This document shows, in pieces, positions 782 through 18,380 of a DNA stretch of 18,380 bases (within the stretch, counting starts at the first letter, position 1; the number at the start of each line of letters is the position of its first letter). Source of the DNA: Oscillospiraceae bacterium (GTDB lineage: Bacteria; Bacillota_A; Clostridia; Oscillospirales; Oscillospiraceae); NCBI GenBank assembly GCA_902795095.1, contig CADBKB010000016.1, positions 1-18,380 of the forward strand, given 5' to 3'. The notes under the pieces are model-generated. The model saw only the letters and a list, made by a program, of their open reading frames with translations, was not told the origin of the DNA and did no database searches. The translations under genes and the position numbers were made by a program.

Positions 782-800
782 GCCGAGAGGAGGCCGTCAT

Positions 801-3251
801 TTGATCGCCCGGATCGCTGTGGCAGCGGCGGTATACGCCATCGACAAGCCCTACAGCTACCGTATCCCCGCAGGGACGGACGCGCGTCCCGGCATGCGGG
901 TGCGCGTGCCCTTCGGCGCCGGCAACCGCCGCACCGAGGGCGTGATCCTTGCCCTGGAGGCGGGCGACGAGACCGGCCTGAAAAGCATCGACGAGGTCCT
1001 GGATGACACGCCTGTCCTGTCCGAGGGACTGCTGCATCTGGCCGGCTTCCTCCGCGAGCGCTATTTCTGCACCCTCTACGACGCGGTGCGCGCCATCCTG
1101 CCCGCGGGTCTCTGGTTCTCCGAGCACGGCACCGTCTCCCTGGCCGATCCCCTGCCCCCCGACTGGGAGGCGCAGATCCGCCGCAAGCCCGACGCCCGGC
1201 GCGTCATCCTGGCCCTGCAGGACCTGGGCGGCAGCGCCCGGGAGCAGCAGCTGCGCGAGGCGCTGCCCGAGCTCTCCCTGCCCGAGTGCATCCGCTATCT
1301 CACCGGCAAGAAGCTCATCGCCGTGGACTACGATCTCAAGCGCCGGGTGAACGACCGCATGGATCTGTTCGTGCAGCTCGAGGCCAGCGCCGCCGAGATC
1401 CAGGACCATCTGGCCCGCCGGGGCAAATCCGCCCCCCTGCAGCGCTCCGTGCTGGAGCTGCTCTCCGCCATGGGCAGCGCCTGCGCCAAGGACGTGTGCT
1501 ATTTCACCGGGGCCTCCATGCCCACCCTGCGCCGGCTGGAAAAGCTGGGCCTGGTGAGCTTCTTCTCCTGCGAGGTCATGCGCCGGCCCAGGATCGCCCC
1601 CGCGGCGGATCCCGGCCCGACGGAGCTCAACGCGGAGCAGCGCGCCGCCTATGAGGGCCTGTGCGCCCAGATGGACCGGCCGGACCCCGGCGTGGCCCTG
1701 CTCTACGGGGTCACCGGCAGCGGCAAGACCGCCGTCTACCTGGAGCTCATCGCCCGCTGCCTGGCTTCCGGCAGGCAGGCCATCTTCCTGGTGCCGGAGA
1801 TCGCCCTCACCCCCCAGCTTCTGGGCACGGTGGCGGCCCGCTTCGGCCGCGGCGTGGCGGTGCTGCATTCCAGCCTGCCCATGGCAGAGCGCTACGACGA
1901 ATGGAAGCGCGTGCGCGCCGGCGAGGCGCGACTGGTGGTGGGCACCCGCTCGGCGGTGTTCGCCCCGGTGCCGGAGCTCGGCCTCATCATCGTGGACGAG
2001 GAGCACGAGCACACCTACAAATCCGAGAACACCCCCTATTACCACGCCCGGGAGGTGGCGATCTACCGCGCCAGCGCGGCGGGCGCCCTGACGGTGCTGG
2101 GGTCGGCGACGCCCTCGATCGAGTCCATGTACCGGGCCAGGACCGGGGTTTTCAGCCTCTATACCCTCTCCCACCGCTATTCCGGCGCCTCCCTGCCGGA
2201 GGTGCTGGTGGTGGACATGAAAAAAGAGATCCGCGACGGCAACGGCGGCGCCGTCAGCAATCCCCTGCTCGCGCGGATGCTCGACGCCCACGCCCACGGC
2301 AGGAAGACCATCCTCTTCCTCAACCGCCGCGGCACCAACCGCATGGCGGTATGCGTGGAATGCGGCCATGTGCCCCAGTGTCCCCGCTGCAGCGTCCACC
2401 TGACCTACCATGCCGCCAACCGGCGGCGGATGTGCCACTACTGCGGCTATTCCGAGCCCGCCTCCGACCGCTGCCCGGTATGCGGCGGCAGGATGAAGCA
2501 TCTGGGCTTCGGCACCCAGTGGGTGGTGGACGAGCTGGCGCGCAAGGCGCCGTCCCTCGGCTGTGTGCGCATGGACGCGGACACCGTCTCCGCCGCCAAT
2601 CCCCATGAGAAGATCCTCTCCGCCTTCGAAAAGGGCAGCGAGGCCGTGCTCATCGGCACCCAGATGGTCACCAAGGGTCTCAATTTCGAGGCCGTGACGC
2701 TGGTGGGCGTGCTGGACGCGGACAGCGCGCTCTATGTGGACCATTTCCGCGCCTCGGAGACCGCCTTCTCCATGATGACCCAGGTCATCGGCCGCGCCGG
2801 CCGCTTCCGGGAGCCGGGCACCGCGGTCATCCAGACCATGACCCCGGAAAACCCCGTCATTCAGCTCGCCGCGAAGCAGGACTACGACGCCTTCTATGAA
2901 ACGGAGCTGGAGCTGCGCCGGCTGCGCCAGTGCCCGCCCTTCTGCGATCTCATCACCATCACCGTGGCGGGTCAGGAGGAGACGCGGGTGCGCGAAAGCA
3001 TCCGCACCCTGCGCGCAGCCTTCGAGGGCGCCCTGCGCACCGAGGCCTTCCGCAGCCTGCAGGTGCGCCTGCTGGGCCCCGCCGGCGCACCGGTGCCCCG
3101 GGTCAACAATACCTGGCGCTACCGGCTCACCCTCTGCGCCAAAAACAGCCGCCCCCTGCGCGCGCTGGTGGCGGACTATCTCAGACAATTCTCGAAGGAC
3201 AAGCGCAACAAAGGCGTATTCGCCTTTGCTGACGTGAACGCCTACGATTAA
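801..3251 (+). CDS. priA: Primosomal protein N' (PriA), replication restart helicase
   Basis: A superfamily 2 DNA helicase that recognises stalled forks and D-loops and starts primosome reassembly. The 816-residue product is of full family length. After the N-terminal fork-binding region comes Walker A GVTGSGKT (about residues 303-310), then the DEEH box at 399-402 followed by the aromatic-rich loop HTYKSENTPYYHAREVA. Eight zinc-binding cysteines follow (C518, C521, C527, C530, C545, C548, C558, C561). The C-terminal helicase motifs include GTQMVTKGLNFE and TQVIGRAGR. The start is TTG at 801, chosen because GAGAGGAGG (785-793) lies seven bases upstream and the N-terminus (IARIAVAAAVYAIDKPYSYR) matches PriA proteins from its first residues. 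The stop codon TAA forms part of the def ribosome-binding site. Confidence 0.96.
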   Translation: MIARIAVAAAVYAIDKPYSYRIPAGTDARPGMRVRVPFGAGNRRTEGVILALEAGDETGLKSIDEVLDDTPVLSEGLLHLAGFLRERYFCTLYDAVRAILPAGLWFSEHGTVSLADPLPPDWEAQIRRKPDARRVILALQDLGGSAREQQLREALPELSLPECIRYLTGKKLIAVDYDLKRRVNDRMDLFVQLEASAAEIQDHLARRGKSAPLQRSVLELLSAMGSACAKDVCYFTGASMPTLRRLEKLGLVSFFSCEVMRRPRIAPAADPGPTELNAEQRAAYEGLCAQMDRPDPGVALLYGVTGSGKTAVYLELIARCLASGRQAIFLVPEIALTPQLLGTVAARFGRGVAVLHSSLPMAERYDEWKRVRAGEARLVVGTRSAVFAPVPELGLIIVDEEHEHTYKSENTPYYHAREVAIYRASAAGALTVLGSATPSIESMYRARTGVFSLYTLSHRYSGASLPEVLVVDMKKEIRDGNGGAVSNPLLARMLDAHAHGRKTILFLNRRGTNRMAVCVECGHVPQCPRCSVHLTYHAANRRRMCHYCGYSEPASDRCPVCGGRMKHLGFGTQWVVDELARKAPSLGCVRMDADTVSAANPHEKILSAFEKGSEAVLIGTQMVTKGLNFEAVTLVGVLDADSALYVDHFRASETAFSMMTQVIGRAGRFREPGTAVIQTMTPENPVIQLAAKQDYDAFYETELELRRLRQCPPFCDLITITVAGQEETRVRESIRTLRAAFEGALRTEAFRSLQVRLLGPAGAPVPRVNNTWRYRLTLCAKNSRPLRALVADYLRQFSKDKRNKGVFAFADVNAYD

Positions 3252-3760: not shown

Positions 3761-4683
3761 GGATCGTATTCATGGGCACCCCCGACATCGCCGCCGCCTG
3801 CCTCGAGGGGCTGTGCGCGGCGGGCTTTGCCCCCGTGGGCGTCTATACCAAGCCCGATATGCCCAAGAACCGGGGCATGAAGCTCAGCATGTCCGAGGTC
3901 AAGGAGGTCGCCCTGGCCCATGACCTGCCCGTCTTCCAGCCGACCACCTTCAAGGACGACGCCGTGGTGGAGGAGCTGCGCGCCCTCCGGCCGGACGTGA
4001 TCGCCGTGGTGGCCTACGGCAAGATCCTGCCCCAGCGGGTGCTGGATATCCCGCCCCTGGGCTGCATCAATATCCACGCCAGCATCCTGCCCCAGCTCCG
4101 CGGCGCCGGCCCCGTGCAGTGGGCCATCCTGAACGGCCTTACCGAAACCGGCGTCACCGGCATGTATATGGACGCGGGCATGGACACCGGCGACATCATC
4201 GAGATCCGCCGCACCCCCATCGACCCGGATGAGAACGCCCAGTCCCTTCTCGACCGCCTGGCCGGTCTCGGCTCCGGCCTGCTGACAGAGCTGATGGAGC
4301 GGCTGGCCCGGGGAGAGCGGCTTCCCCGCACGCCCCAGGACCACGAAAAGGCCACCATGGCCCCCATGCTCTCGAAGGCCCTGTGCCCCATCGACTGGAC
4401 CCGCCCCATGGCGGCGATTTACGATCAGATCCGCGGCCTGGACCCCTGGCCCGTGGCCACCGCGGCGCTGGGCGGCAAGCGATTCAAGATCTACAGCGCC
4501 CGCAAAACCGACGAGCGCACTGACCGCGCCCCTGGCACGGTGCTGGGCCTGCGCAAGACCGGCCTGCGCATGGCCTGCGGCGACGGGGCAGTGCTGGAGA
4601 TCACCCGGCTGCAGGCCGAGGGCGGCAAACGCATGGCCGCGCCCGACTATTTCCGCGGCCATCCCCTGCCCGAGACCCCATGA
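3757..4683 (+). CDS. fmt: Methionyl-tRNA formyltransferase
   Basis: Transfers a formyl group from 10-formyltetrahydrofolate to Met-tRNAfMet for translation initiation. The 308-residue protein starts MRIVFMGTPDIAA, the expected Rossmann N-terminus. The catalytic residues are visible: Asn105 and His107 in NIHASILPQLRGAGPVQ and Asp143 in MDAGMDTGD. The C-terminal OB-like domain follows from about residue 205. The true start is the ATG at 3757, overlapping the def stop. An open frame continues upstream to 3550, but that part is out-of-frame def sequence. The stop overlaps the rsmB ATG (4680-4683), so def, fmt and rsmB are probably translated in series by re-initiation. Confidence 0.96.
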   Translation: MRIVFMGTPDIAAACLEGLCAAGFAPVGVYTKPDMPKNRGMKLSMSEVKEVALAHDLPVFQPTTFKDDAVVEELRALRPDVIAVVAYGKILPQRVLDIPPLGCINIHASILPQLRGAGPVQWAILNGLTETGVTGMYMDAGMDTGDIIEIRRTPIDPDENAQSLLDRLAGLGSGLLTELMERLARGERLPRTPQDHEKATMAPMLSKALCPIDWTRPMAAIYDQIRGLDPWPVATAALGGKRFKIYSARKTDERTDRAPGTVLGLRKTGLRMACGDGAVLEITRLQAEGGKRMAAPDYFRGHPLPETP

Positions 4684-5981
4684 GCGCCCGCAATACCGCC
4701 CTGGCGGCGCTGATCGCCTGCCGTCGGCGCAACGCCTGGTCCGACGGCATTCTGAAGGAATACATCGCCCGCGACGGCCTGGACCGCCGGGACGCCGCCC
4801 TGGCCAGCCGCCTGTGCTACGGGGTGCTGCAGAACCGGATGCTGCTGGATTTCTATATCAGCGCTTTCCTCAAAGGGAAGCTCCGGGATCTGCAGCCTGT
4901 GGTGCTGGATATCCTGCGCCTGGGCGTCTACCAGCTCACCATGACCGATAAGATCCCGCCCTCCGCCTGCGTCAACGAGGCGGTGGAGCAGGGCAAGAAA
5001 TACGCCAACGCCCGGGCCGCCGGCCTCATCAACGGCGTGCTGCGCGCCGTCACGAGGGCGGAGCGCCTGCCCGAGCCCCCGGATCTCGCCACCCGCTTCA
5101 GCCACCCGGCGCCCCTGGTGGAGCTGCTGCGGCAGAGCGTGGGCGACGAGCTCCTCCCGGCCCTCCTGCAGAGCCATAACGAAGCGCCCCGCACCTGCGT
5201 GCAGGTGAACACGACGAAACTCACCCCCGCCGCGGTCGCCGCGCAGATGGAGCGCAACGGCATGGGTGTGGAAAAACACCCCTGGCTGCCCGGCTGCTAT
5301 GAGCTGACCGGCACCGGCAGTCTGGAGGCTCTGGACGCCTGGCGCGACGGCCTGGTGTACGTCCAGGATCCCGCCGCCCGTCTGGCGGTGTACGCCGCGG
5401 GCCTGACCCCCGGGATGCGGGTGCTCGACTGCTGCGCCGCCCCCGGCGGCAAGAGCTTCTCCGCCGCCGTCGACATGGAAAACCGCGGCGAGCTGATCAG
5501 CTGCGATATTCACAGGCATAAGATCGCCCTCATCGAGAAGGGCGCGGAACGGCTCGGCCTGACATGTATCAGGGCCATGGAGCACGACGCCAGGACCCCG
5601 ATGCCGGAATGGCGCGAGGGCTTTGACGCCGTCATCGCCGACGTGCCCTGCTCGGGTCTGGGCGTCATCCGCAAAAAGCCCGACATTCGCTACAAGGACC
5701 TCGGGCCCACCGAGGCGCTGCCGGCGCTGCAGCTGGCGATCCTCCGGCAGCAGGCGGAATATGTCCGCCCCGGCGGCGTGCTGCTCTACAGCACCTGCAC
5801 GATCCTGCGCCGGGAAAACGAGGACGTGATCCGCGCCTTCCTGGCCGATCACCCGGAATTCTTCCCGGAGAGCATCTGCGCCCCGCCGGACTGCCCGGTG
5901 TCGGGCCCCATGGTCACGCTCCTTCCCTGCCTGCACAGCGCCGACGGATTCTTTATTGCGAAACTGAGGAAACATTCATGA
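4680..5981 (+). CDS. rsmB: 16S rRNA m5C967 methyltransferase (RsmB/Sun family)
   Basis: An S-adenosylmethionine-dependent enzyme that methylates a cytosine of 16S rRNA (C967 in Escherichia coli numbering). The 433-residue protein has an N-terminal NusB-like helical domain (about residues 1-135, ending at INGVLRAV). The Rossmann methyltransferase domain follows: SAM motif DCCAAPGGK (250-258), motif IV DVPCSGLGVIRKKPD with Cys324, and motif VI YSTCTILRRENED with catalytic Cys373. Two cysteines at these places are diagnostic of the RNA m5C family. The start ATG overlaps the fmt stop and the stop overlaps the rlmN start, both as ATGA. Confidence 0.95.
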   Translation: MSARNTALAALIACRRRNAWSDGILKEYIARDGLDRRDAALASRLCYGVLQNRMLLDFYISAFLKGKLRDLQPVVLDILRLGVYQLTMTDKIPPSACVNEAVEQGKKYANARAAGLINGVLRAVTRAERLPEPPDLATRFSHPAPLVELLRQSVGDELLPALLQSHNEAPRTCVQVNTTKLTPAAVAAQMERNGMGVEKHPWLPGCYELTGTGSLEALDAWRDGLVYVQDPAARLAVYAAGLTPGMRVLDCCAAPGGKSFSAAVDMENRGELISCDIHRHKIALIEKGAERLGLTCIRAMEHDARTPMPEWREGFDAVIADVPCSGLGVIRKKPDIRYKDLGPTEALPALQLAILRQQAEYVRPGGVLLYSTCTILRRENEDVIRAFLADHPEFFPESICAPPDCPVSGPMVTLLPCLHSADGFFIAKLRKHS

Positions 5982-7003
5982 CCGATATCAAGTCCATGAC
6001 CCGGGACGAGCTCGGCGCGGCCTTCGCCGCCATGGGCCAGCCCCGATTCCGGGCGGGCCAGGTCTTCGCCTGGCTGCACCGGGGCGTGCGGAGCTTCGAC
6101 GAGATGACGAACCTCCCCAAGGCCCTGCGGGAGCAGCTGGCGGCGGAATATGAGCTCACCGCCCCCGCCGTTGCCCGAAAACAGGTCTCGGCAAAGGACG
6201 GGACGATCAAGTATCTCTGGCGTCTGGGCGACGGCCACTGCGTGGAATCCGTGCTCATGCGCTATCACCACGGCAATACCGTGTGCATCTCCTCCGAGGT
6301 GGGCTGCGCCATGGGCTGCGCCTTCTGCGCCTCCACCCGCGGCGGCCTGGTGCGCCGGCTGCGGCCCTCGGAGATGCTCGACCAGGTGCTCTTTACGCAG
6401 CTCGATTCCGGCGCGCCGATCTCCAACATCGTGCTCATGGGCATCGGCGAGCCCCTGGACAACTACGACAATGTTCTTCGATTTCTTGCCCTTGTGAACG
6501 ACCCTGAGGGCATGAACATCGGCATGCGCCACATCAGCCTGTCCACCTGCGGCCTGGTGCCGGGGATCGACCGGCTTGCCGGGGAGGACCTGCAGCTCAC
6601 CCTGTCCGTATCGCTGCACGCCCCGGACGACGAGGTCCGCAGCCGTCTGATGCCGGTCAACCGGCGCTATCCCATCGGCGAGCTGCTTGCCGCCTGCCGA
6701 CGCTACTTTGAAACCACCGGCCGCCGCATCTCCTTCGAGTATGCCATGATCGACGGCCTGAACGATACGCCGGAGATGGCAAACACGCTGATCCGGCGCC
6801 TGCGGGGCCTCCCCGCCCATGTGAATCTCATCCCTCTCAACCGCATCGAGGAGAGCCCCCTGCAGCCCAGCGCGCGGCAGGCGGTGGCGGCCTTTCAGAA
6901 GGCCCTGGCCGATGCGGGGATCACCGCCACGGTACGCAGGACCCTGGGAAGCGACATCGACGCCTCCTGCGGGCAGCTGCGAAAGAAATACGAGCAAATC
7001 TGA
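5978..7003 (+). CDS. rlmN: Dual-specificity radical-SAM methyltransferase RlmN (23S rRNA A2503 / tRNA A37)
   Basis: Adds a C2 methyl to adenosine in 23S rRNA and certain tRNAs, using a radical-SAM 4Fe-4S cluster. The 341-residue length is typical. The cluster motif is CAMGCAFC with Cys110, Cys114 and Cys117. The C-terminal Cys331 in GSDIDASCGQL is the conserved partner of the methyl-carrying chemistry. Also present are MGIGEPLDNYDNV and SLHAPDDEVRSRLMPVNRRY, segments typical of RlmN rather than Cfr. Its ATG overlaps the rsmB stop (ATGA at 5978-5981). Antibiotic-resistance Cfr was considered, but the housekeeping context and the RlmN-type sequence argue against it. Confidence 0.95.
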   Translation: MTDIKSMTRDELGAAFAAMGQPRFRAGQVFAWLHRGVRSFDEMTNLPKALREQLAAEYELTAPAVARKQVSAKDGTIKYLWRLGDGHCVESVLMRYHHGNTVCISSEVGCAMGCAFCASTRGGLVRRLRPSEMLDQVLFTQLDSGAPISNIVLMGIGEPLDNYDNVLRFLALVNDPEGMNIGMRHISLSTCGLVPGIDRLAGEDLQLTLSVSLHAPDDEVRSRLMPVNRRYPIGELLAACRRYFETTGRRISFEYAMIDGLNDTPEMANTLIRRLRGLPAHVNLIPLNRIEESPLQPSARQAVAAFQKALADAGITATVRRTLGSDIDASCGQLRKKYEQI

Positions 7004-7015
7004 AAGGAGGCAGCC

Positions 7016-7747
7016 ATGGAGGCATGGGGACTTTCGGACACCGGCAACGTCCGAAAACAGAATCAGGACTACTATAACCTCATACATTTCGGGCCCGAGT
7101 GCCTGCTGGCCATCATCTGCGACGGTATGGGCGGCGCCAAGTCCGGCAATGTGGCAAGCCATCTGGCCGCGGACGCCTTCTGCGCCGAGGTGCGCAGAAA
7201 CATCCGCCCCGACCTTCTGGTGGAGGACGTCAAGCGCATCATGACCGGCGCCCTGGAGCTGGCCAACCGGGCCGTCTATGAGCACGCCCAGCTCAGCGAC
7301 GACTACACCGGCATGGGTACCACCCTGGTGGCCGCCTTCGTCTGCGGCAAGACCCTGGTGGTCGCCAATGTGGGCGACAGCCGGGCTTACCTCGTCTCCA
7401 GCGGCAGCATCCGGCAGATCACAGTGGATCACTCCGTGGTGCAGATGATGCTGCGCCGGGGGGAGATCTCCCGGGAGCAGGCCCGCAACCATCCCGTCCG
7501 CAATCTCATCACCCGCGCCGTGGGCACCGAGGCCCGGGTGGTCTGCGATATCTTCACCCTGAGCGTCGATCACGGCGACCACGTGCTGCTGTGCTCCGAC
7601 GGCCTGACAAATCTGATTACAGATCCCGAGCTGCTGTTTGAGATCGCCCACAGCGCGGACAAATCCGCCTGCTGCGAGCGGCTCATCGCCATGGCGAAGG
7701 ACCGCGGCGCGCCGGATAATGTGACGGCTGTGCTGATCTCAATCTGA
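7016..7747 (+). CDS. prpC: PP2C-type Ser/Thr protein phosphatase
   Basis: A cytoplasmic metal-dependent phosphatase that reverses phosphorylation by the adjacent PASTA kinase. The 243-residue protein has the PP2C signatures in order: NQD (Asp18), CDGMGG (Asp36), GMGTTLVAAF, VGDSRAYLV, ITVDHSVVQMM, CSDGLTN (Asp195) and DNVTAVLI (Asp234). The aspartates form the dinuclear metal site. ATG 7016 follows AAAGGAGG (7003-7010) by five bases. It starts 12 bases after the rlmN stop. The 72 bases to prkC hold no convincing promoter, only a short hairpin at 7773-7792, so phosphatase and kinase are likely co-transcribed as in other Firmicutes. Confidence 0.95.
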   Translation: MEAWGLSDTGNVRKQNQDYYNLIHFGPECLLAIICDGMGGAKSGNVASHLAADAFCAEVRRNIRPDLLVEDVKRIMTGALELANRAVYEHAQLSDDYTGMGTTLVAAFVCGKTLVVANVGDSRAYLVSSGSIRQITVDHSVVQMMLRRGEISREQARNHPVRNLITRAVGTEARVVCDIFTLSVDHGDHVLLCSDGLTNLITDPELLFEIAHSADKSACCERLIAMAKDRGAPDNVTAVLISI

Positions 7748-7819
7748 ACAAACGCACCCGATCTTTGGTGATCCGCCGGCCGGAATCGGCGGGGCCGCTG
7801 GGCGGCAAAGGAGTTGTAT

Positions 7820-9832
7820 ATGGATAATTACATAGGAAAAATGCTGGACGACCGCTATGAGATCCTCGACGTCATCGGCACCGGGGGAATGGCCGTCGTC
7901 TATAAGGCAAAGTGCCACCGGCTCAACCGGCTTGTGGCCATCAAGATCCTCAAGGATGAATACTCCAGCGACGAGGAATTCCGCCGCCGTTTCCGGGCGG
8001 AGTCCCAGGCGGTCGCCATGCTGTCGCATCCCAACATCGTCTCGGTATACGACGTGTCCCAGTCCGGCGACACGGACTATATCGTCATGGAGCTGATCGA
8101 CGGCATCACCCTCAAGCAGTATATGGAGAAGAAGGGCGTGCTCAACTGGCGCGAGACCCTGCATTTCTCCATCCAGATCGCCAAGGCGCTGGAGCACGCC
8201 CACAGCCGCGGCATCATCCACCGGGACATCAAGCCCCACAACATCATGATCCTGAAAAACGGCAGCGTGAAGGTGGCCGACTTCGGCATTGCCCGGGTCC
8301 TGTCCGCCCAGAACACGCTGACCCGGGAGGCCCTGGGCTCGGTGCACTATATCTCCCCCGAGCAGGCCAAGGGCAGCCGGGTGGACAATCGTACCGACAT
8401 CTACTCCCTGGGCGTGGTGATGTATGAGATGCTCACGGGCCGTCCCCCCTACGACGGCGAGAGCCCCGTGGCTGTGGCCATCAAGCATATCAACGCCGGC
8501 GCTCCCATGCCCAGCGAGCTCAATCCCAATATCCCCGGCGGCCTGGAGCAGATCACCATGCACGCCATGTGCGCCAATCTGGATGAACGCTACGCCTCCG
8601 CCACGGAGATGCTCTACGATCTGGAGGAGTTCCGCAAGGATCCCACCGTCCTGTTCCAGTTCAAGGGCGCTCCCGCCGCGCCGGCGCGGCCGAAGCCGAA
8701 CCGCATCCAGGAAAAGACCCCCGCCGAGCGCCGCAGCGAGGAGCGCGCCCGCCTGCGCAAGCTGGAGGAGCAGCGCCGCGCCGCCCGGCGCAAGCGCATA
8801 CGCAACATTGCCTTCATCGTCGGCTCCATCGTCCTGCTGGCTCTGATCATCGTCCTGGTGGCCAGCGCCTGCAGCAAGAAGGACGTGCAGCTCGTCACCG
8901 TGCCCAATTTCACCGACAAGGTCTTCGCCGATCTGTCCGCCTCGGACTATCCCGGCCTGCGCCTGGTGGAGAACACCAAGGAATACAGCGACGAGTATGA
9001 GGCCGGCCACATCATAGACCAGTCTCCGAAGCCCAACGCCCAGGTGGCGGAGGGCACCCGGGTGCTGCTCACGATCAGCCTGGGCCGGATGAGCACCCAG
9101 ATGCCGGATCTGCAGGAGATGCGCTCCAGCGAAGCGGAGAAGCTGCTGAAGAATCTGGACCTGGATCTGACCATCCGCATCGTCACCGTTTTCGACGATA
9201 TTGTGGAGGAAAATCGGGTCATCCGCACCGAGCCCAGCGCAGACGTGACCCTGACCGAGGGCCAGACCGTCACCCTGTATGTCAGCCGCGGCCCCGAGGC
9301 GGCGAAGATCGCCGTGCCCTCGGTGGAGGGCGAGCCGCTGGCCAAGGCCATCGCCATCCTGACCGAGGCCAAGCTCGACTACAAACGCACCTATGTGGAC
9401 AGCGACAAGGAAAAGGATACCGTCGTCAGCCAGAGCGTCAAGGCCGGCGAAGAGGTGCCCGAGGGCACGGTCATCACCCTGGAGATCTCCCGCGGGCCGA
9501 AGGAAGATGAGAAGGAGCCCGAGCCGGAACCCGAACCGGAGCCGGAGCCCGAGCCGGAGCCCGAGCCCCAGCCCCAGCCCCAGCCCGACGATCAGCCCAG
9601 CGCCGGCGAACAGATGACCACGAAGATCTATTCCGTCAACGTGGCTGACCATACCGAGCCCGTGTCGGTGGACGTGATCTGCGCCCCCACCGGCGAGGTC
9701 TGCGGCGAAACCCAGTACCTGGAGCCCGGCGAGAACTCCATCAACATCGCCCTGACGGGCTCCGGCACCGTGACCTACAACGTCTATGTGGACAACTCGT
9801 ACTACACCTCCTTCACCATGACCTTTGACTGA
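7820..9832 (+). CDS. prkC: Membrane Ser/Thr protein kinase with three PASTA domains (PrkC/Stk type)
   Basis: A Hanks-type kinase that senses cell-wall fragments or lipid II outside the cell and phosphorylates targets inside. The predicted length is 670 residues. The kinase domain (about 11-275) has glycine loop GTGGMAVVYKA, Lys42 in VAIKILK, HRDIKPHN (Asp136) and DFG (Asp154). A basic juxtamembrane stretch precedes one membrane helix (about 329-350, IAFIVGSIVLLALIIVLVAS). Three PASTA repeats follow (about 357-423, 426-492, 496-563), then an EP/QP dipeptide linker (566-589) and a C-terminal beta-rich segment of about 73 residues that is not PASTA. The start is ATG 7820, six bases after AAAGGAG (7807-7813); the in-frame TTG at 7814 directly abuts that site and is unlikely. 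Confidence 0.94.
   Translation: MDNYIGKMLDDRYEILDVIGTGGMAVVYKAKCHRLNRLVAIKILKDEYSSDEEFRRRFRAESQAVAMLSHPNIVSVYDVSQSGDTDYIVMELIDGITLKQYMEKKGVLNWRETLHFSIQIAKALEHAHSRGIIHRDIKPHNIMILKNGSVKVADFGIARVLSAQNTLTREALGSVHYISPEQAKGSRVDNRTDIYSLGVVMYEMLTGRPPYDGESPVAVAIKHINAGAPMPSELNPNIPGGLEQITMHAMCANLDERYASATEMLYDLEEFRKDPTVLFQFKGAPAAPARPKPNRIQEKTPAERRSEERARLRKLEEQRRAARRKRIRNIAFIVGSIVLLALIIVLVASACSKKDVQLVTVPNFTDKVFADLSASDYPGLRLVENTKEYSDEYEAGHIIDQSPKPNAQVAEGTRVLLTISLGRMSTQMPDLQEMRSSEAEKLLKNLDLDLTIRIVTVFDDIVEENRVIRTEPSADVTLTEGQTVTLYVSRGPEAAKIAVPSVEGEPLAKAIAILTEAKLDYKRTYVDSDKEKDTVVSQSVKAGEEVPEGTVITLEISRGPKEDEKEPEPEPEPEPEPEPEPEPQPQPQPDDQPSAGEQMTTKIYSVNVADHTEPVSVDVICAPTGEVCGETQYLEPGENSINIALTGSGTVTYNVYVDNSYYTSFTMTFD
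9515..9586 (+). repeat. Glu-Pro / Gln-Pro dipeptide repeat in PrkC
   Basis: Twelve dipeptides in a row: nine Glu-Pro then three Gln-Pro, encoded by alternating GAG/GAA or CAG with CCC/CCG. The repeat lies outside the membrane, between PASTA domain 3 and the C-terminal segment, and would act as a stiff extended spacer. Synonymous codon mixing shows it is not a fresh slippage product, though its length may vary between strains. Confidence 0.9.
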
Positions 9833-9839
9833 GGCAGCC

Positions 9840-10721
9840 ATGACCGGACGAATCGTAAAAGCACTCAGCGGCTTCTACTATGTAGAAGCCGCTGACGGCA
9901 TCCATGAATGCCGCGCCCGGGGGATCTTCCGCAAGCAGGGCCAAAGCCCCCTGGTGGGGGACCTGGTGGAATTCTCCCGCGCCGGCAAAGGCGGCACCGT
10001 CGACGCCATTGCCCCCCGGCGCAACCGCTTCGTGCGCCCGGCGGTGAGCAATGTGGACCTGCTGGTGCTGCTGGCGGCGGCCTGCAACCCGGTAACGGAC
10101 CCCTTCCTTCTGGATCGGGTGCTGGCCATCGCCGCCGCCCGGGACGTGCGCTGTCTCATCTGCATCAACAAATGCGATATTGACCCCGGCGACACGCTGG
10201 CGGGGATCTATGAACGCGCCGGCTTCGACGTGCTGCGCACCAGCGCGGTGACGGGCCGGGGCGTGGAGCAGCTGCGCGGCCGCATCGCGGGCAAAACCGC
10301 CGTCTTCACCGGCAACTCCGGCGTGGGCAAATCCAGCCTGCTCAACGCCCTGGCGCCGGATTATGCCGTGCCCACCGCCGAGGTGTCGGAGAAGCTGGGC
10401 CGCGGCCGCCACACCACCCGTCATGTGGAGCTCTACCGCATCGCGCCGGACACCTATCTGGGCGACACGCCGGGCTTCTCCTCCTTCGATCTGGAGCAGA
10501 TGGATGTGATCCTGAAGGAGGATCTGCAGTATGCCTTCCCCGATTTCGCGCCGTTTCTGGGCCAATGCCGCTTCCAGGACTGCGCCCATCTGCGCGAGCC
10601 CGACTGCGCGGTGACGGCCGCCCTGGAGCGCGGCGAGATCGAGCCCACCCGCTACCGCAGCTACGTGCGGCTGTATGAACAGGCAAAGGAGTATAAGCAG
10701 TGGGAAATGAAACAGCCCTGA
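9840..10721 (+). CDS. rsgA: Ribosome small-subunit-dependent GTPase RsgA
   Basis: A GTPase that checks late 30S subunit maturation. The 293-residue protein has the circularly permuted order that defines the family: an N-terminal OB fold (about 1-65), then G4 NKCD (110-113), then G1 GNSGVGKSS (158-166) and G3 DTPG (209-212). A C-terminal zinc site follows, with Cys243, Cys248, His250 and Cys256. ATG 9840 is preferred, with GAGG at 9831-9834 overlapping the prkC stop TGA (9830-9832). An in-frame TTG at 9825, inside prkC, would add five residues but has no good ribosome-binding site. The last 22 bases overlap thiN. Confidence 0.95.
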   Translation: MTGRIVKALSGFYYVEAADGIHECRARGIFRKQGQSPLVGDLVEFSRAGKGGTVDAIAPRRNRFVRPAVSNVDLLVLLAAACNPVTDPFLLDRVLAIAAARDVRCLICINKCDIDPGDTLAGIYERAGFDVLRTSAVTGRGVEQLRGRIAGKTAVFTGNSGVGKSSLLNALAPDYAVPTAEVSEKLGRGRHTTRHVELYRIAPDTYLGDTPGFSSFDLEQMDVILKEDLQYAFPDFAPFLGQCRFQDCAHLREPDCAVTAALERGEIEPTRYRSYVRLYEQAKEYKQWEMKQP

Positions 10722-11374: not shown

Positions 11375-11524
11375 ATGTGCAGAAAGTATCAGACGGCGGG
11401 GGTCTGCCTCATCACGGCGGGCCTCGGGATGCTGCTCGGCCTGCTGCTGGGCGGCGGGGCGCTGACGGTGATCGTCAGTCTCGGACTGCTGGCCGCGGGG
11501 GCGGCGCTGGCAGGGAAAAAATAG
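11375..11524 (+). CDS. Small hydrophobic protein, 49 residues, unknown function
   Basis: The frame starts ATG 11375 and stops at TAG 11522-11524. It encodes MCRKYQTAGV followed by a strongly hydrophobic, Gly/Leu/Ala-rich stretch (about residues 9-46, with GLGMLLGLLLGGG in the middle) and a Lys-Lys end. This could form one long or two short membrane helices; the positive N-terminus (Arg3, Lys4) suggests N-in. No sequence-specific function is recognised. It sits between thiN and the SPOCS/LysM gene, five bases after a hairpin whose G-run (11361-11366) is the only possible ribosome-binding site, eight bases before the ATG. Its stop codon overlaps a sigma-E-like promoter. Chance is possible at this size, but the membrane-like composition and basic ends favour a real gene. 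Confidence 0.55.
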   Translation: MCRKYQTAGVCLITAGLGMLLGLLLGGGALTVIVSLGLLAAGAALAGKK

Positions 11525-11552
11525 CATATTCCCGCTTCTTGCCGCATATCGT
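11524..11552 (+). promoter_or_regulatory. Candidate sporulation sigma-E-type promoter
   Basis: GCATATT (11524-11530) is followed after 14 bases by CATATCGT (11545-11552). The first element matches the Bacillus subtilis sigma-E -35 consensus KMATATT at all seven positions; the second matches CATA and the final T of CATACAHT. Spacing is in the accepted range. A start near 11559 would leave a leader of about 22 bases with AAGGAG at 11568-11573. It stands out as AT-rich in a GC-rich region and precedes a spore-type gene. Confidence 0.5.
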
Positions 11553-11580
11553 TAGGGTAGAACGGACAAGGAGTGATGGA

Positions 11581-13068
11581 ATGGAGCTGGAATTTCGACC
11601 GGTGCAGATCCCCTGTCTGCACTGCGTTTTGTATGAGACGGTGACCCAGGAGGTGCGGGGGGAGGTCCCGGTGCCGGAGGACGCCGGAGATCCGACCCGG
11701 ATCATCGGCGCCCTCGCCGACGCGGTGGTCCGCACCCGGCAGTGCGGAAACGGCGATCTCAGCCTCAACGGCGACGTGCAGGCCTGCGTGCTGCTGGAAG
11801 CCGCCGACCGGCCGGAGCCCCTGACCCTGAGCGTCTATCTGCCCTTCACCCTGGGCCGCAGCGTGGCGCCGGAGGCGACGTCCTGCGCGGTGCGCTGCCG
11901 CGTCGCCGGGGCGGAGGCCCAGCTTCTGGGGGCGCGGAAGGCGGGTGTCCGGGTGGTGCTGCATCTGACCCTGTGGGCCTGGGCGCCCCGGGAGCAGACC
12001 TGCTTCCGGCCGGAGGGCCGGGACCGCCGGGTGCAGCTGCGGCTGCGGGAATACCCCATGCGCCTGGTGCGCGAATGCGCGCAGAAAACGATGCTGCTGC
12101 GCGATACCCTGCCCCTGGCCGCCGGAGCGCCGGAGGCCGCCCGGATCGTGCATACCCGGACGCGGTGCGAGATCAGCGACGCCAAGCTCAGCGGCAGCCA
12201 GGCCGTATGCAAGGGGACCCTGCATCTGAGCCTGCTCTACGAGACCCCGGCGGGCGAGCTGTGCGCAGGCGAGCTGGCCATGCCCTTCTCCCAGCTCATC
12301 GACCTGGCAGGCAGCTATGATGAGCAGAGCGCGGAGATCCTGCCCCAGCTCACCGCGGCGGAGGCTCTGGCGGAGGACGGCGGCGTCGCGGTGGAGGCGG
12401 GGATCGAGCTGCAGTGCATTGTGCGCCAGACCGTCGCCGTGCCCATCGTGGAGGACGCCTACGCCCTGCGGGGCGAGCTTCAGACCCGGACCCAGAGCGT
12501 AGAGCTGACGCCCATGCTGGACATCCGGACCCTGCGGCAGGACCTGGCTCCGGAGCTCCCCGGCCGGGCCCGGGAGATCCTGGCCGTGGACGTCTTCCCC
12601 GGCACGCCCCAGATCGAAAGCCGCGACGGCGCCTGCCGGATCCGCGCGCCGGTACAGATCTGCCTGCTCTATCGGGACGAGACCGGCGCCTGCCGCCGGG
12701 CGGAGGGCAGCGCCTGCTTTGATCAGCAGGTGAGCGCCGCCCCCGCCCTGTGCCGGGCGGAGGCCGGGATCGAGGGCACGGTCTTTGCCGCCCCCGGCGC
12801 AGGCCGGATCGAGCTGCGCATCCCCGTGGCGGTGCATGCCCGCTGGTACGATGAGCGCCCGCGGCAGAGCATCTGCGCCGCCCAGCTGCGGGAGGGCCCC
12901 CGGGAGGAGCGCCCCGCCGTGGTCATCCGCACCCTGGAGGCCGACGCCCCCCTTTGGGACATCGCCAAGGAGCTGCGCACCACCGTCAGCGCCATCCAGA
13001 TCGCCAACGACATGGACGCCGATGTGGCCCCCGCGGGCATGATGCTTCTGATTCCCATCGTTGCATAG
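11581..13068 (+). CDS. SPOCS (DUF3794) and LysM domain protein, SipL-like spore morphogenesis type
   Basis: The 495-residue protein has repeated SPOCS/DUF3794-type beta-rich segments: the first spans about residues 1-155 (ELEFRPVQIPCLHC onward), and more copies lie between about 160 and 440. It ends in a LysM domain (about 452-495, LWDIAKELRTTVSAIQIAND, then a typical LLIPIV end). In Clostridioides difficile, SipL has this SPOCS-LysM layout and joins SpoIVA at the forespore surface. Equivalence here is inference, since clostridia often have more than one such protein. There is no signal peptide, as expected for a mother-cell cytoplasmic protein. ATG 11581 is chosen because AAGGAG (11568-11573) is seven bases upstream; an in-frame ATG at 11326 would swallow the hairpin and small gene and gives a low-quality N-terminus. 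Confidence 0.85.
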   Translation: MELEFRPVQIPCLHCVLYETVTQEVRGEVPVPEDAGDPTRIIGALADAVVRTRQCGNGDLSLNGDVQACVLLEAADRPEPLTLSVYLPFTLGRSVAPEATSCAVRCRVAGAEAQLLGARKAGVRVVLHLTLWAWAPREQTCFRPEGRDRRVQLRLREYPMRLVRECAQKTMLLRDTLPLAAGAPEAARIVHTRTRCEISDAKLSGSQAVCKGTLHLSLLYETPAGELCAGELAMPFSQLIDLAGSYDEQSAEILPQLTAAEALAEDGGVAVEAGIELQCIVRQTVAVPIVEDAYALRGELQTRTQSVELTPMLDIRTLRQDLAPELPGRAREILAVDVFPGTPQIESRDGACRIRAPVQICLLYRDETGACRRAEGSACFDQQVSAAPALCRAEAGIEGTVFAAPGAGRIELRIPVAVHARWYDERPRQSICAAQLREGPREERPAVVIRTLEADAPLWDIAKELRTTVSAIQIANDMDADVAPAGMMLLIPIVA

Positions 13069-13101
13069 CGCGGCGCAGCCGCATAATTGCTGATTTTGCG
13101 G

Positions 13102-13156
13102 AAAAAACCGGAAGAATTGCGGAAATGCTCCGCAATTCTTCCGGTTTTCGGTTTTA
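13102..13156. terminator. Strong 19-bp hairpin terminator, probably bidirectional
   Basis: Bases 13104-13122 pair perfectly with 13130-13148 around a seven-base loop. Rightward, the stem ends in TTTT and is followed by CGGTTTTATT, ending the SPOCS/LysM transcript. Leftward, the A-run at 13102-13107 becomes a T-run, so the same hairpin can end the convergent TetR-family transcript. Confidence 0.88.
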
Positions 13157-13211
13157 TTCGTGAATCCCTGTTCCCGCCCCGCGATCCGTCCGCAGGATGC
13201 CGCAAACAGAA

Positions 13212-13251
13212 GCACCGGCCAAGCCATCTTGGGCTTTGCCGGTGCGTTTTT
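13212..13251 (+). terminator. Second intrinsic terminator, 14-bp stem
   Basis: Bases 13212-13225 pair with 13232-13245 with one mismatch around a six-base loop, followed by GTTTTT (13246-13251). It would back up the terminator at 13102-13156 for rightward transcription and shield the leftward regulator gene, whose stop is 11 bases further on. The leftward T-tract is poor. Confidence 0.75.
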
Positions 13252-13261
13252 GCGCTGCTGT

Positions 13262-13840
13262 TTATGATTCCGCCTGCGGCGCAGGCCCGAGTGCTTGCGA
13301 AAATCGCTCGAATAGTGTCTGCAGAAGCTCCGGCTTTTTTGCCACCACCATATAGCCGATATCCTCCAGCTCCGTGCCGCCGTCGAACAGCCAATCCCGG
13401 AACAGCTCGATGATGCCCAGCACATAGTACTTGACCTCCACCAGCTCCCGCCGGGGCATCTCCTCGCCGGTGACCGACTTGTACACATCCCGGGCGCCCT
13501 GGATCATGATGGTCTGCATGTATTCCCGGAGGGAATTCTGGGACTGATCCGAGAACGCCTTCTGATAGAAGGTCTTCCGCTTGTGCAGCCGTTCGTTCAC
13601 CACCGCAAGGCTGTCGGGGCTGAAGTCCGGCGGTCCGTCCTCTGGACCGGTGGAGATATCCTGCAGATAGATCCAGGATACCAGGTCATACTTATCCCGG
13701 AAATAATAATAGAAGGTGGCCGGCACCGTACCGCAGCGCTTGCACAGGGCTGTGACGCGGACCTTCTCCAGCGGCATCGTTTCCAGCATCTGGATCAGCG
13801 CGTCCGCGAAAGACTTCTTTGTGCGCTCCTTGATCTGCAT
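13262..13840 (-). CDS. TetR/AcrR-family transcriptional regulator
   Basis: The 192-residue protein has an N-terminal TetR helix-turn-helix (about residues 8-58). Its recognition part reads VRVTALCKRCGTVPATFYYYF and is followed by RDKYDLVSWIY, a form common in the DhaS-like TetR subgroup of Firmicutes. The C-terminal ligand and dimer domain is helical and not diagnostic of any effector. The start is ATG 13840-13838, because AAGGAGG (13854-13848) is seven bases upstream; the in-frame GTG at 13846 is only one base from that site. The gene is divergent from the secreted glycosidase gene, which with a dyad in the shared intergenic region makes self-control and control of that gene plausible. Many regulators of this subgroup act on unlinked genes, so the target is unproven. 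Confidence 0.88.
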   Translation of the reverse strand: MQIKERTKKSFADALIQMLETMPLEKVRVTALCKRCGTVPATFYYYFRDKYDLVSWIYLQDISTGPEDGPPDFSPDSLAVVNERLHKRKTFYQKAFSDQSQNSLREYMQTIMIQGARDVYKSVTGEEMPRRELVEVKYYVLGIIELFRDWLFDGGTELEDIGYMVVAKKPELLQTLFERFSQALGPAPQAES

Positions 13841-13869
13841 GCCCACCCCTCCTTATTTAATCTGTTTAT

Positions 13870-13996: not shown

Positions 13997-14035
13997 ATGA
14001 TTCCCTCGGAACACATTACCGCACAAACCCGTTAA
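13997..14035 (+). CDS. Possible 12-residue leader ORF before the glycosidase gene
   Basis: ATG 13997 opens MIPSEHITAQTR and stops at TAA 14033-14035. A strong ribosome-binding site, AAGGAAGGAG (13983-13992), lies four bases upstream. The stop is 19 bases before the main ATG, and the main site AAAGGAGGAG lies at 14041-14050. Two good ribosome-binding sites in tandem are unusual. It may be a leader peptide or a remnant; no terminator-antiterminator pair was seen around it. Confidence 0.3.
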   Translation: MIPSEHITAQTR

Positions 14036-14054
14036 GATTCAAAGGAGGAGCAAA

Positions 14055-17000
14055 ATGAGAAAAACCAAACGCGGCATTGCGTGGCTCATCTGCCTCGTGA
14101 TGCTTCTGAGCATGCTTCCTGCCGTCTCCCTCGCGGCGGATCCGGAAGCGCCCGAGGTGGACAAGGCCAATGTGGCCAACCCCTACCTGCCGATGTGGGA
14201 GCACATCCCCGACGGCGAGCCCAGAGTCTTCACCGATCCCGCCAGCGGCGAGCAGCGGCTGTACATCTACGGCTCCCATGACAGCAGAAGCGACGCCTAC
14301 GGCTACTGCGGCAAGGACCATGTCACCTGGTCCGCCCCGCTGGACGATCTGACCGACTGGCGCTTTGAGAACACGCTGATCGACACCTCCGCCCTGGTGG
14401 GTGTGACCTACACCGACGCCGAGGGCAACGAGCAGGTCATGGAGGAGAACACCAGCCGCGTGCTCTTCGCCCCGGACGTCATCTACTATCCCGACAACGA
14501 GACCTATTACATGTTCCTGTTCCCGAATCCGGACAACAAGATCTTTGTTGCCACCAGCAAGAGCCCCGCGGGCCCCTTCACGGATCCGAAGTACGTGTGC
14601 GACGGCTTCGATCCCGCCGCCCTGGTGGACGACGAGCTGGACGAGAACGGAAAGCACAAGGTCTACCTCTACTATTCCACCGAGAGCGGCCGCGACGGCT
14701 ACGCCTGCCAGCTCGATCCCGACAACGGCATGAGCGTCATCCCCGGCACCCTGCACTATCCCGATACCTTCAAGACCGACGCGGACGAGACCGTCTCCGC
14801 CAAGGCGACGATGCTCTCCAAGAACCTGGCGCCGTTCCACTTCTTCGAGGGTCCCTCCATCCGCAAGGTCAACGACTGGTATCTGCTGTCCTATCAGCGC
14901 TCGGCCCCGACCAACCCCGAGAATACCGGCAACGGCAAGCTCGCCGAGATCGGCTGGGCCTATTCCAAGAACCCCTACGGCGATCCCAACTACCCCGTGG
15001 AGGCGCTCCGCGACGAATGGCATTACGGCGGCGTGATCGTCAGCAACCTGGGCGAAAACGTGGCCAACCCCTACGCCGAGGATCCCGAGAATCCCGACTA
15101 CATCGATACCTTCTACGGTCAGAACACCCACGGCGGCATGGTGCAGGTGGGCGACCAGTGGTACCAGGTATACCACAGAGCCACCGGCAACGGCATCAAG
15201 CGCCAGTCGCTGATCGAGCCGTTCACCATGGAATTCGACGAGACCGACGGCCATCCCATCATCCAGCAGGTGGAGATGACCTCCCAGGGCGTGCAGGCCG
15301 ACGGCCTGGATCCCTATCAGAACTACTATGCCGCCATCGCCTGCTATAAGATCGGCGGACAGTACGTCACCTGGTCCTGGGGCGACTGGGTGTTCTACGG
15401 GGATTACCCGGTCTTCAACTGCACCACCGACGGCAACTATGACGCCAACGGCGAGCACGGCGACTGGTATCCCATCGAGCAGATCCGCAACCGCACCTGG
15501 CTCGGCTACAAGTACTTCAACTTCGGCCAGGGCGTGGGCGGCGGCGAGGTGACGCTGACCCTTTCCCTGAAGGAATTCGCCCTCGCCACCGTCAATGTCT
15601 ACGCCAGCGATCCCAAGGCAAACTATGAGGACACGGAGAAGCCGAAGACCCTCATCGGCACCCAGGAGCTGACGGGCGAGGACGCCGAGGAGCACGAGAT
15701 CGACATCTCCCTGGATCCCGCCGGACTCACCGGCAGGAAGGGCATCTATCTGGAGTTCCTCTCCGCCGACGGCAGCTCCGAGACCGAGCTCGTCAAGCTG
15801 AACAAGCTCGGCTTCAGCAAGACGGAGCCTGTGCTGGAATACCGCCTGGCCGAGAGCTTTGAGCCCGGCAAGACCTATGTGGTCGTGGCGGACGACGCCT
15901 ATGCCCTCAGCGCCAACACCAACGCCCAGGGCAGCCTCAGCGCGACGCCTGTCACCGTCGACGCCGACGTCATCACCAGCGAGGTCACCGAGGATATGCT
16001 CTGGACCTTCGACGAGGCCCAGGGCGTGGCCGCCCCCACGGACGGAAGAGAGCTGTATCTCATCTCCGACGCCGAGGGCCGCAACATCCGGCGCGGCTCC
16101 GGCGGCACCGCCACGCTGCAGCTCGGCACCTTCGACGCCGCCAGCTCCCGGTACTACACCTGGTCCCTGGCAGAGCGCACCGCGGAGGACAGCGCCTACA
16201 CCCTCTATGTCAACTCCACCAGCTCCTATGTCTACTATGTGACCGGCGCCGAGACCGGCTTCAGCGTGAGCTATGTTTCCAGCTCCGGCTGGGATACGCA
16301 GAACAGCGGCAGCTCCATCCGGCTGTACGAGCTCACCGGCAGCGGCCCCTCCGTCAAGCTGGACAAGACCGCCATCCGCGCCGCCATCCGCGCCGCCGGT
16401 GCCGTCCGGCGGGAGCTGTACACCGACGAGACCCTCGCCGCCCTGGACGCCGCCCTGGCGCAGGCCAACGCCGCCCTGGCGCAGGCCCAGACACAGCAGG
16501 CGCTGGACGACGCCGCCGCAGCGCTGAACGAGGCCATTGCCGCCCTGGAGCGCAGACCCGTCGAGCCCAACAAGCCGGTGGAGATCCCCGACGACGGCGT
16601 GCAGGCCGCGAACCCCTACCTGCCCATGTGGGAGCGCATCCCCGACGGCGAGCCCAGGATCTTCCCAGATCCCGAAACCGGCGAGGAGCGGATGTACGTC
16701 TACGGCTCCCATGACACCACGGGCTTCTACTGCGGCCCGGATCACGTGGTGTGGTCCGCCCCGCTGACCGATCTGACGAACTGGCGCTATGAGGGCCTGG
16801 CCATCAAGACCACGGACCTCGACGGCATCCCCTATGTGGATCAGAACGGCGCCGACCAGATCCTGCACATCCAGTCCGGCCACCTGTTCTACGCGCCGGA
16901 TGTGGTCTACAACCCCACCACGGAAAAATACACCCTCATCGGCTTCCTGTCCGAGGCCAACCCCCGCTCGTTCATCTTCGCCGCCACCAGCGACACCCCG

Positions 17001-18380
17001 GGCGGTCCCTTCACCGATCCCCACTTCATCGGCTGGGGCTTCGACCCCGCGGTGCTCGTGGATGACGAGCTGGATGAGAACGGCCACCAGCGGATGTACC
17101 TGTACTGGTCCGTGGAGGCCGACCGCTCCGGCTGGGCCGCGGAGCTGGATCCCGAGACCGTCACCATCATCGACGGCACCACCCACAGCCCCCGCGTGAA
17201 CGGGACCGTGGAGGGCCTGAACACCATGTTCTCCAAGGGCGACGCGCCGTTCTACTTCTTCGAAGGCCCGTCCATCCGGAAGATCGACGACACCTATGTG
17301 CTGAGCTACGCCCGGTCCAAGCCGCTGGAGGGCGACTCCAACGGCTACCTGTCCGAGATCGGCTACGCCACCAGCGACAACCCCTTCGGCGACCCCGCCC
17401 TGGGCAGCGAATGGGAGTACGGCGGCGTGATCATCGACAACAAGGGCGAGCTGGTGGCCGATCCCTACGCCGCGGGTTCCACCACCTACACCTACTTCGG
17501 CGGCAACAACCACGGCGGTATGATCCAGGCCGGCGACGACTGGTACCAGATCTACCACCGCGACACCAACAAGAGCTCCAAGCGCCAGTCCATGGCTGTG
17601 AAGCTCAACGTCTACTTCGACGAAGCGGGCAAGCTGAAGATCGATCAGGCGGAGTTCACCTCCGAGGGCTTCCGCACCGAGGGTCTGGATCCCTATGAGC
17701 GCCTGTATGCGGCCTCCTTCTGCTACGCCCTGCCCACCACCGGCGGCAGCTGGTGGAGCGCGGCGGGCCCCGTCATCGCCACCAACGACGCGCTGAACTT
17801 CGACCCCGCCGCCGAGCGCGACAACTGGTACGGCGTGAGCAATCTGAAGAACCACACCTGGGTCGGCTACAAGTACTACAACTTCGGCGACGGTCTCGCC
17901 TCCGGCGATTCGCTGAAGCTGGTGCTGACCCTGAAGGAGCTCGGCGCGGGCACCGTCAATATCTACGCCTCCGACGCCAAGGAAAGCTACGCCGATCCCG
18001 AGCAGCCGAAGACGCTGATCGGCACGATTGCCCTCACCGGCGAGAACGCCGAGGCCCATACCGTGGAGGGCCAGATCACCAACACCGCTGTGCTCAAGGG
18101 CAAGCAGGCCATCTATCTGGAATTCCTGACCGAGAGCACCGCCTCCATCGCGGAGCTCAATGAGCTGCAGTTTGTCAAGGAGGCCGGCGCCACCGTCGAT
18201 AAGGCCGCCCTGGAGGCCGCCATCGAGACCGCCGAAGCCGAAGCCGCACATACGGATATCTACACCGCCGAATCCCTGGCCGCGCTGAATGAGGCGCTGG
18301 CTGCGGCCAAGGCTGTGGAAGAGAATCCCGACGCCACCCAGGAAGAGGTGGACGCTGCCGCCGAGGCTCTGGAGGCCGCC
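14055..18380 (+). CDS. Secreted double GH43 glycosidase with CBM6-like and FIVAR modules, 3' end beyond window
   Basis: The frame runs 1442 codons with no stop to the window edge. ATG 14055 follows AGGAGG (14043-14048) by six bases. A signal peptide (about 1-28: basic start, WLICLVMLLSML core, SLAA end) predicts export. Approximate modules: GH43 (42-415), CBM6-like (417-592, with GYKYFNFG), unnamed beta module (593-768), FIVAR (769-836), second GH43 (853-1208), second CBM6-like (1210-1376, GYKYYNFG) and second FIVAR (from 1380). Each GH43 keeps the expected base, pKa-modulating and acid residues: Asp53/Asp141/Glu265 and Asp864/Asp949/Glu1070, within PDGEP, APDV and FFEGPSIRK. GH43 enzymes cleave arabinose, xylose or galactose linkages in plant polysaccharides; the exact substrate cannot be read here. 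A wall anchor may lie beyond the window. Confidence 0.9.
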   Translation, partial: MRKTKRGIAWLICLVMLLSMLPAVSLAADPEAPEVDKANVANPYLPMWEHIPDGEPRVFTDPASGEQRLYIYGSHDSRSDAYGYCGKDHVTWSAPLDDLTDWRFENTLIDTSALVGVTYTDAEGNEQVMEENTSRVLFAPDVIYYPDNETYYMFLFPNPDNKIFVATSKSPAGPFTDPKYVCDGFDPAALVDDELDENGKHKVYLYYSTESGRDGYACQLDPDNGMSVIPGTLHYPDTFKTDADETVSAKATMLSKNLAPFHFFEGPSIRKVNDWYLLSYQRSAPTNPENTGNGKLAEIGWAYSKNPYGDPNYPVEALRDEWHYGGVIVSNLGENVANPYAEDPENPDYIDTFYGQNTHGGMVQVGDQWYQVYHRATGNGIKRQSLIEPFTMEFDETDGHPIIQQVEMTSQGVQADGLDPYQNYYAAIACYKIGGQYVTWSWGDWVFYGDYPVFNCTTDGNYDANGEHGDWYPIEQIRNRTWLGYKYFNFGQGVGGGEVTLTLSLKEFALATVNVYASDPKANYEDTEKPKTLIGTQELTGEDAEEHEIDISLDPAGLTGRKGIYLEFLSADGSSETELVKLNKLGFSKTEPVLEYRLAESFEPGKTYVVVADDAYALSANTNAQGSLSATPVTVDADVITSEVTEDMLWTFDEAQGVAAPTDGRELYLISDAEGRNIRRGSGGTATLQLGTFDAASSRYYTWSLAERTAEDSAYTLYVNSTSSYVYYVTGAETGFSVSYVSSSGWDTQNSGSSIRLYELTGSGPSVKLDKTAIRAAIRAAGAVRRELYTDETLAALDAALAQANAALAQAQTQQALDDAAAALNEAIAALERRPVEPNKPVEIPDDGVQAANPYLPMWERIPDGEPRIFPDPETGEERMYVYGSHDTTGFYCGPDHVVWSAPLTDLTNWRYEGLAIKTTDLDGIPYVDQNGADQILHIQSGHLFYAPDVVYNPTTEKYTLIGFLSEANPRSFIFAATSDTPGGPFTDPHFIGWGFDPAVLVDDELDENGHQRMYLYWSVEADRSGWAAELDPETVTIIDGTTHSPRVNGTVEGLNTMFSKGDAPFYFFEGPSIRKIDDTYVLSYARSKPLEGDSNGYLSEIGYATSDNPFGDPALGSEWEYGGVIIDNKGELVADPYAAGSTTYTYFGGNNHGGMIQAGDDWYQIYHRDTNKSSKRQSMAVKLNVYFDEAGKLKIDQAEFTSEGFRTEGLDPYERLYAASFCYALPTTGGSWWSAAGPVIATNDALNFDPAAERDNWYGVSNLKNHTWVGYKYYNFGDGLASGDSLKLVLTLKELGAGTVNIYASDAKESYADPEQPKTLIGTIALTGENAEAHTVEGQITNTAVLKGKQAIYLEFLTESTASIAELNELQFVKEAGATVDKAALEAAIETAEAEAAHTDIYTAESLAALNEALAAAKAVEENPDATQEEVDAAAEALEAA
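14178..18180 (+). repeat. Protein-level duplication of the GH43 and CBM6-like unit
   Basis: The unit at 14178-15825 (residues 42-590) recurs at 16611-18180 (residues 853-1375). Matching anchors include NPYLPMWE.IPDGEPR, a GFDPA.LVDDELDENG stretch, F.FFEGPSIRK, a GLDPY start for the carbohydrate-binding part, and KPKTLIGT versus QPKTLIGT. DNA has diverged clearly, so this is an old duplication, not a recent tandem copy. The beta module at 593-768 has no second copy before the window's last FIVAR. Confidence 0.9.
16371..16490 (+). repeat. Short tandem repeats in the first FIVAR segment
   Basis: GCCATCCGCGCC occurs twice in tandem at 16371-16394 (AIRAAIRA). A 21-base unit at 16449-16469 recurs at 16470-16490 with two mismatches (AALAQAN then AALAQAQ). 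Both are in frame and lie in Ala-rich helices, so the FIVAR spacer seems to grow by small in-frame duplications. Confidence 0.75.

Follow-up and report, generated by a model that had tools for sequence, protein, structure and literature searches.

A rightward gene for two GH43 units and a predicted beta-trefoil module in an Oscillospiraceae bacterium

The stretch analysed here (the window) comprises 18,380 nucleotides of contig CADBKB010000016.1 from an Oscillospiraceae bacterium, and its right end contains a rightward open reading frame (14055-18380 (+)) that starts with ATG and continues for 1442 codons without a stop up to the window edge, its 3' end being open. The initial annotation had taken this frame for a real gene open at the window edge, and the open reading frame scan, two stretches of PF04616 match in its protein (E 2.3e-32 in the Pfam scan) and its codon usage agreed with this. 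The correlation of codon usage with 8 window genes was 0.88 for this frame and 0.44 for the leftward frame that overlaps it. The possibility of a stop or frameshift had also been raised; the frame was stop-free throughout, and no frameshift was apparent because the GC content at third codon positions stayed between 0.82 and 0.95 in all 12 full 120-codon blocks. The rightward gene is genuine and well-formed.

The encoded protein begins with an export-signal-like N-terminus, which was judged by eye and fits the signal peptide proposed in the initial annotation. It is followed by a GH43 (glycoside hydrolase family 43) unit (U1), a middle module, a FIVAR-like spacer, another GH43 unit (U2) and a further FIVAR-like spacer (Table 1). 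U1 (residues 39-590) and U2 (residues 851-1375) are 49% identical over 559 columns. The PF04616 profile scored 113 bits against a curated cut-off of 32.2, in two stretches of the window protein, and it matched all 53 aligned family members, U1 and U2 included, at E <= 0.001. The predicted structure has the five-bladed beta-propeller of GH43, and the placement of both units in this family was thus borne out. The description of the units as "CBM6-like" held in part: the predicted structure has a beta-rich part at that position and 10 of the 53 family members match PF03422 (CBM_6), but no match to this profile was found in the window protein. The FIVAR profile PF07554 scored 26.6 bits against a cut-off of 29.2, and the second copy is truncated at the window edge. 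These features suggest that the gene product would be an exported multimodular GH43 enzyme.

The alignment gave each unit the full GH43 acid set, D53/D186/E265 in U1 and D864/D997/E1070 in U2, as the initial annotation had claimed. The columns of D53, D186 and E265 have the same acid in every row reaching them (123, 127 and 130 of 130 family rows, respectively). When aligned with ten canonical GH43 sequences in three MAFFT modes, these columns were invariant whereas that of D141 was not; the ten sequences, which come from three genomes, were hand-picked among 20 matching frames of four genomes (DP motif in 18 of the 20) and trimmed to 14 residues ahead of their own DP motif, which made the base column easier to anchor. 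The untrimmed profile alignment of one of the ten (L113) likewise placed PDGEP over PDPAP. E55 of the DGEP motif, which had emerged as a candidate Glu base when only one distant GH43 sequence was aligned, was dropped because D53 aligned in all three MAFFT modes. With base, modulator and acid complete in U1 and U2, both GH43 sites appear intact on paper.

The initial annotation had placed the gene under a long antisense frame. This overlap is present, and the leftward frame 14016-18251 (-), with 1411 residues, is indeed the only complete long frame over the region, which is the point in favour of its being the true gene. However, the overlap is nothing special, as it follows from codon bias. 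Since the sense and antisense frames each start on a multiple of 3, they share a codon register, and an antisense stop requires a TTA, CTA or TCA codon in the sense frame. Such codons are absent from the GH43 gene and number 4 in 5696 codons across 12 genes (GH43 gene included); usage in the other genes predicts ~1.5 of them in the GH43 gene, with a chance of about 1 in 5 (P(0) ~0.21) of finding none. Five more antisense frames of 442-809 residues overlie housekeeping genes, and none of these has a Pfam match above the curated cut-off. The leftward frame gave zero Pfam matches up to E = 1 and, in view of its low codon correlation and of the codon bias that accounts for it, an antisense gene was rejected as next to impossible.

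Table 1. Features of the GH43 gene and its surroundings in the window.
Feature	Position	Strand	Remark
Whole open frame	14055..18380	+	1442 codons, stop-free to window edge
Shine-Dalgarno-like AAAGGAGG	14041..14048	+	6 bases ahead of ATG 14055
Signal-peptide-like N-terminus, aa 1-28	14055..14138	+	by eye: basic start, hydrophobic core, SLAA before D29
U1 GH43 catalytic part, ~aa 39-430	14169..15344	+	boundary from structure model
U1 catalytic base D53	14211..14213	+	alignment with ten canonical GH43 sequences
U1 pKa modulator D186	14610..14612	+	alignment
U1 general acid E265	14847..14849	+	alignment
U1 C-terminal beta-rich part at CBM6 position, ~aa 431-590	15345..15824	+	model
Middle module, aa 595-762	15837..16340	+	predicted beta-trefoil, no Pfam/NCBIfam family
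FIVAR-like spacer, aa 766-843	16350..16583	+	under Pfam cut-off
U2 GH43 unit, aa 851-1375	16605..18179	+	C-terminal beta-rich part by homology to U1
U2 catalytic base D864	16644..16646	+	alignment
U2 pKa modulator D997	17043..17045	+	alignment
U2 general acid E1070	17262..17264	+	alignment
Second FIVAR-like spacer, aa 1379-1442	18189..18380	+	cut by window edge
TetR-type regulator	13262-13846	-	divergent to GH43 gene, between SipL/LysM gene and 14055
Long antisense frames over housekeeping genes	759-3188, 4647-5975, 5849-7651, 7739-9841, 11389-13488	-	codon-bias by-product

The middle module (residues 595-762), which the initial annotation had not mentioned, was predicted to adopt a beta-trefoil fold, reminiscent of sugar-binding domains. 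It matched no Pfam family up to E = 1 and no NCBIfam family, and its best E against solved chains by sequence was 0.21. When 12 module members were compared with Pfam up to E = 0.1, no ricin/CBM13 model was found and only two chance-level matches appeared, each in one member (Gp34_trimer, 0.056; DUF3144, 0.068). Further copies of the module occur in proteins that carry GH10, GH67, esterase, SLH and FIVAR domains, and SLH is present in 11 of 15 large module-bearing proteins besides the window protein. A 2734-residue frame (L087:3-8204 (-)) of Oscillospiraceae bacterium SIG463 (genome G001) contains three copies of it together with GH10 and four FIVAR stretches, and runs into the contig end. Being unclassified and recurrent in large, mostly SLH-bearing proteins, the module makes a simple candidate for a novel family of binding modules, and it is the part of the gene most worth following up.

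The relationship of the two units was examined in a tree of 77 of the 130 family rows, with long branches flagged among distant rows. U1 clustered with P0003, P0041 and P0042 (100/100) and U2 with P0002 (97/99), U1 and U2 standing apart. A recent internal duplication was therefore rejected, and U1 and U2, as judged from their separate well-supported branches, represent an old paralogous pair within one GH43 clade, a divergence on which the initial annotation was silent; an assembly repeat is unlikely given 49% protein identity between them. In the catalytic part, 20 columns are fixed within the U1 branch (4 rows) and the U2 branch (7 rows) yet differ between the two, and these include T358/N1152, which adjoins an invariant His and is occupied by T in 56 and N in 40 members in the rest of the family. 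P0003 matches the U1 half at 75% but is a single unit followed by SLH domains, whereas P0002 matches the middle module, FIVAR and U2 half (70% over residues 595-1442) but has a GDSL esterase in place of U1. Because these closest proteins divide the gene between them, the chain looks like a product of module shuffling.

A search with the whole protein scored 7991 candidates of 0.55-1.75 times the query length; 39 of these reached E <= 0.001, the best covering 59% of the query, and none was a relative of the whole architecture. The family profile matched 214 proteins and locus frames, of which the window protein alone has two full units of the clade; P0006 has one such unit plus one distant GH43. 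A search of 300 genomes of the related family, in which at most two first-look candidates were scored per genome, matched 62 genomes and gave no frame spanning both units among the matches listed. One distant clade member with a single unit escaped this search, the 1155-residue frame L096 of G001 (Pfam at G001:C9:4479-5207), which was found by profile search at 27-31% identity and has PDTEP where the window protein has PDGEP. The genome-locus search gave 64 loci at 29-44% identity, and the search of viral contigs gave zero loci. In the sequences compared here, no other chain combining two branches of one clade around a central trefoil was met.

Upstream of the GH43 gene and its divergent TetR-type regulator lies a housekeeping run of gmk, priA, def, fmt, rsmB, rlmN, a PP2C phosphatase, a PASTA kinase, rsgA, thiamin pyrophosphokinase and a SipL/LysM protein. 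The order of this run is kept in G001 (11 genes at 64-95% protein identity) and in the G105 stretch examined, where it covers 10 genes. Neither TetR nor GH43 was found in the next 5.8 kb (G001) and 8.9 kb (G105) past the run, and thus the GH43 gene lies at a synteny break; G001 carries middle-module and FIVAR parts elsewhere in its genome. No other carbohydrate enzyme was recognised within the window. A strong terminator-like hairpin of 20 pairs (13104-13148) was noticed 3' of the SipL/LysM gene.

Taking the sequence features together, we favour, with moderate confidence, an exported and probably SLH-anchored two-site GH43 enzyme on (arabino)xylan, in which the trefoil would serve as a holder and the sites would differ in preference. 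Its chain would run from signal peptide through GH43 unit 1, beta-trefoil, FIVAR-like spacer, GH43 unit 2 and second FIVAR-like spacer to a missing C-terminus that is probably SLH. As expected from the family, each site would be inverting, through a single displacement in which one Asp serves as base, Glu as acid and a second Asp as modulator, and would release terminal arabinofuranose or terminal xylose residues from (arabino)xylan. The trefoil may hold the enzyme on the substrate or at the cell surface. The linkages or neighbouring substituents preferred by U1 probably differ from those preferred by U2; the initial annotation had likewise offered two specificities, or else cooperative attack, as possibilities. 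SLH domains are present in the relatives P0003 and P0004, and a C-terminal SLH wall anchor is likely because a close U1 relative ends in such domains. By analogy with the module partners (GH10, GH67, esterase) and with TerARA, the nearest solved relative, the substrate leans to xylan over arabinan, and the enzyme most likely acts on arabinoxylan. In a bolder version, which we regard as rather improbable, the module would represent a novel family of carbohydrate-binding beta-trefoils, used in Oscillospiraceae relatives as a common targeting tag for a non-cellulosomal, SLH-anchored set of xylan-degrading enzymes (GH10, GH67, esterases and GH43). In the present gene it would keep two complementary same-clade arabinofuranosidase/xylosidase sites near each other, one clearing the substituent that blocks the other.

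Several observations weigh against the favoured reading. The module also occurs with metallophosphoesterases (P0163 and L091), in a protein that has CotH (P0014) and in one with a cellulase-type N-terminal domain (L054, from G001), and it is absent from L096, the one member of the GH43 clade found in G001. In P0041 and P0042, two close U1 relatives, the sequence as listed opens directly with the catalytic unit and shows no obvious signal peptide, and the U1 lineage may therefore also be inside cells. The anchor is a guess, the gene end lying beyond the window. The specificity of GH43 enzymes shifts easily, and TerARA is only 34% identical to U1.

Two other readings of the function were considered. 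Both units could have equal specificity and simply double the density of active sites at the surface, as a dosage or avidity fusion. The triads and most motifs are alike, the units belong to one clade and they share 49% identity over 559 columns; moreover, T and N beside the invariant His are both common across the rest of the family, so this difference is not necessarily a sign of new specificity. The separate well-supported branches of the units and the 20 branch-fixed columns that differ between them, T358/N1152 among them, speak against equal specificity, which we consider possible but unlikely. The chance that the enzyme debranches arabinan or arabinogalactan and not xylan appears smaller still. 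GH43 includes such enzymes, and a two-GH43 chain of Bifidobacterium longum, BlArafE, works on gum arabic and arabinogalactan protein (PMC8939339), but the nearest solved relative here is an arabinofuranosidase/xylosidase and the module partners include the xylan enzymes GH10 and GH67. A probably anchored enzyme on (arabino)xylan with sites of differing preference is the reading that we retain.

The gene would offer a clean test of two related sites in one chain against the same two sites on separate chains; according to PMC8939339, this comparison is still to be made for soluble substrates. Among known systems, TerARA (PDB 9no3), an arabinofuranosidase/xylosidase from a metagenome of Pseudacanthotermes militaris, is the nearest solved structure to U1 (34% identity), but it is one 506-residue unit with no space for the trefoil, FIVAR or second unit. 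The endo-xylanase GH43-like enzyme of C. boliviensis (PMC11022575) was considered for the base question and was not used as the closest relative. The middle module differs from ricin-B-type beta-trefoil lectin/CBM domains in that a sequence match to ricin/CBM13 families is absent in Pfam and NCBIfam. BlArafE (BLLJ_1850) resembles the window protein in that its surface-type chain contains two GH43 catalytic domains, whose sequential action was demonstrated through mutating each domain (PMC8939339); its domains, however, come from different subfamilies (GH43_22 and GH43_34) and are accompanied by LamG/Ig domains and a transmembrane anchor, whereas the window units share one clade. The R. josui enzyme Abf43A-Abf43B-Abf43C likewise has several GH43 domains per chain, two of which jointly degrade arabinan, but these domains represent three different subfamilies and the substrate is arabinan (cited in PMC8939339). 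The same source cites 228 multidomain GH43 enzymes, of which 143 contain GH43_34. Two separate PF04616 matches per frame were also found in other genomes (four searched), for example in G401:C282 (933 residues) and G403:C10 (869 residues), and G402:C1 (3050 residues) has two matches, one partial. The two GH43 sites per chain noted in the initial annotation are therefore present in this gene but had already been known; the arrangement is new, the kind is not.
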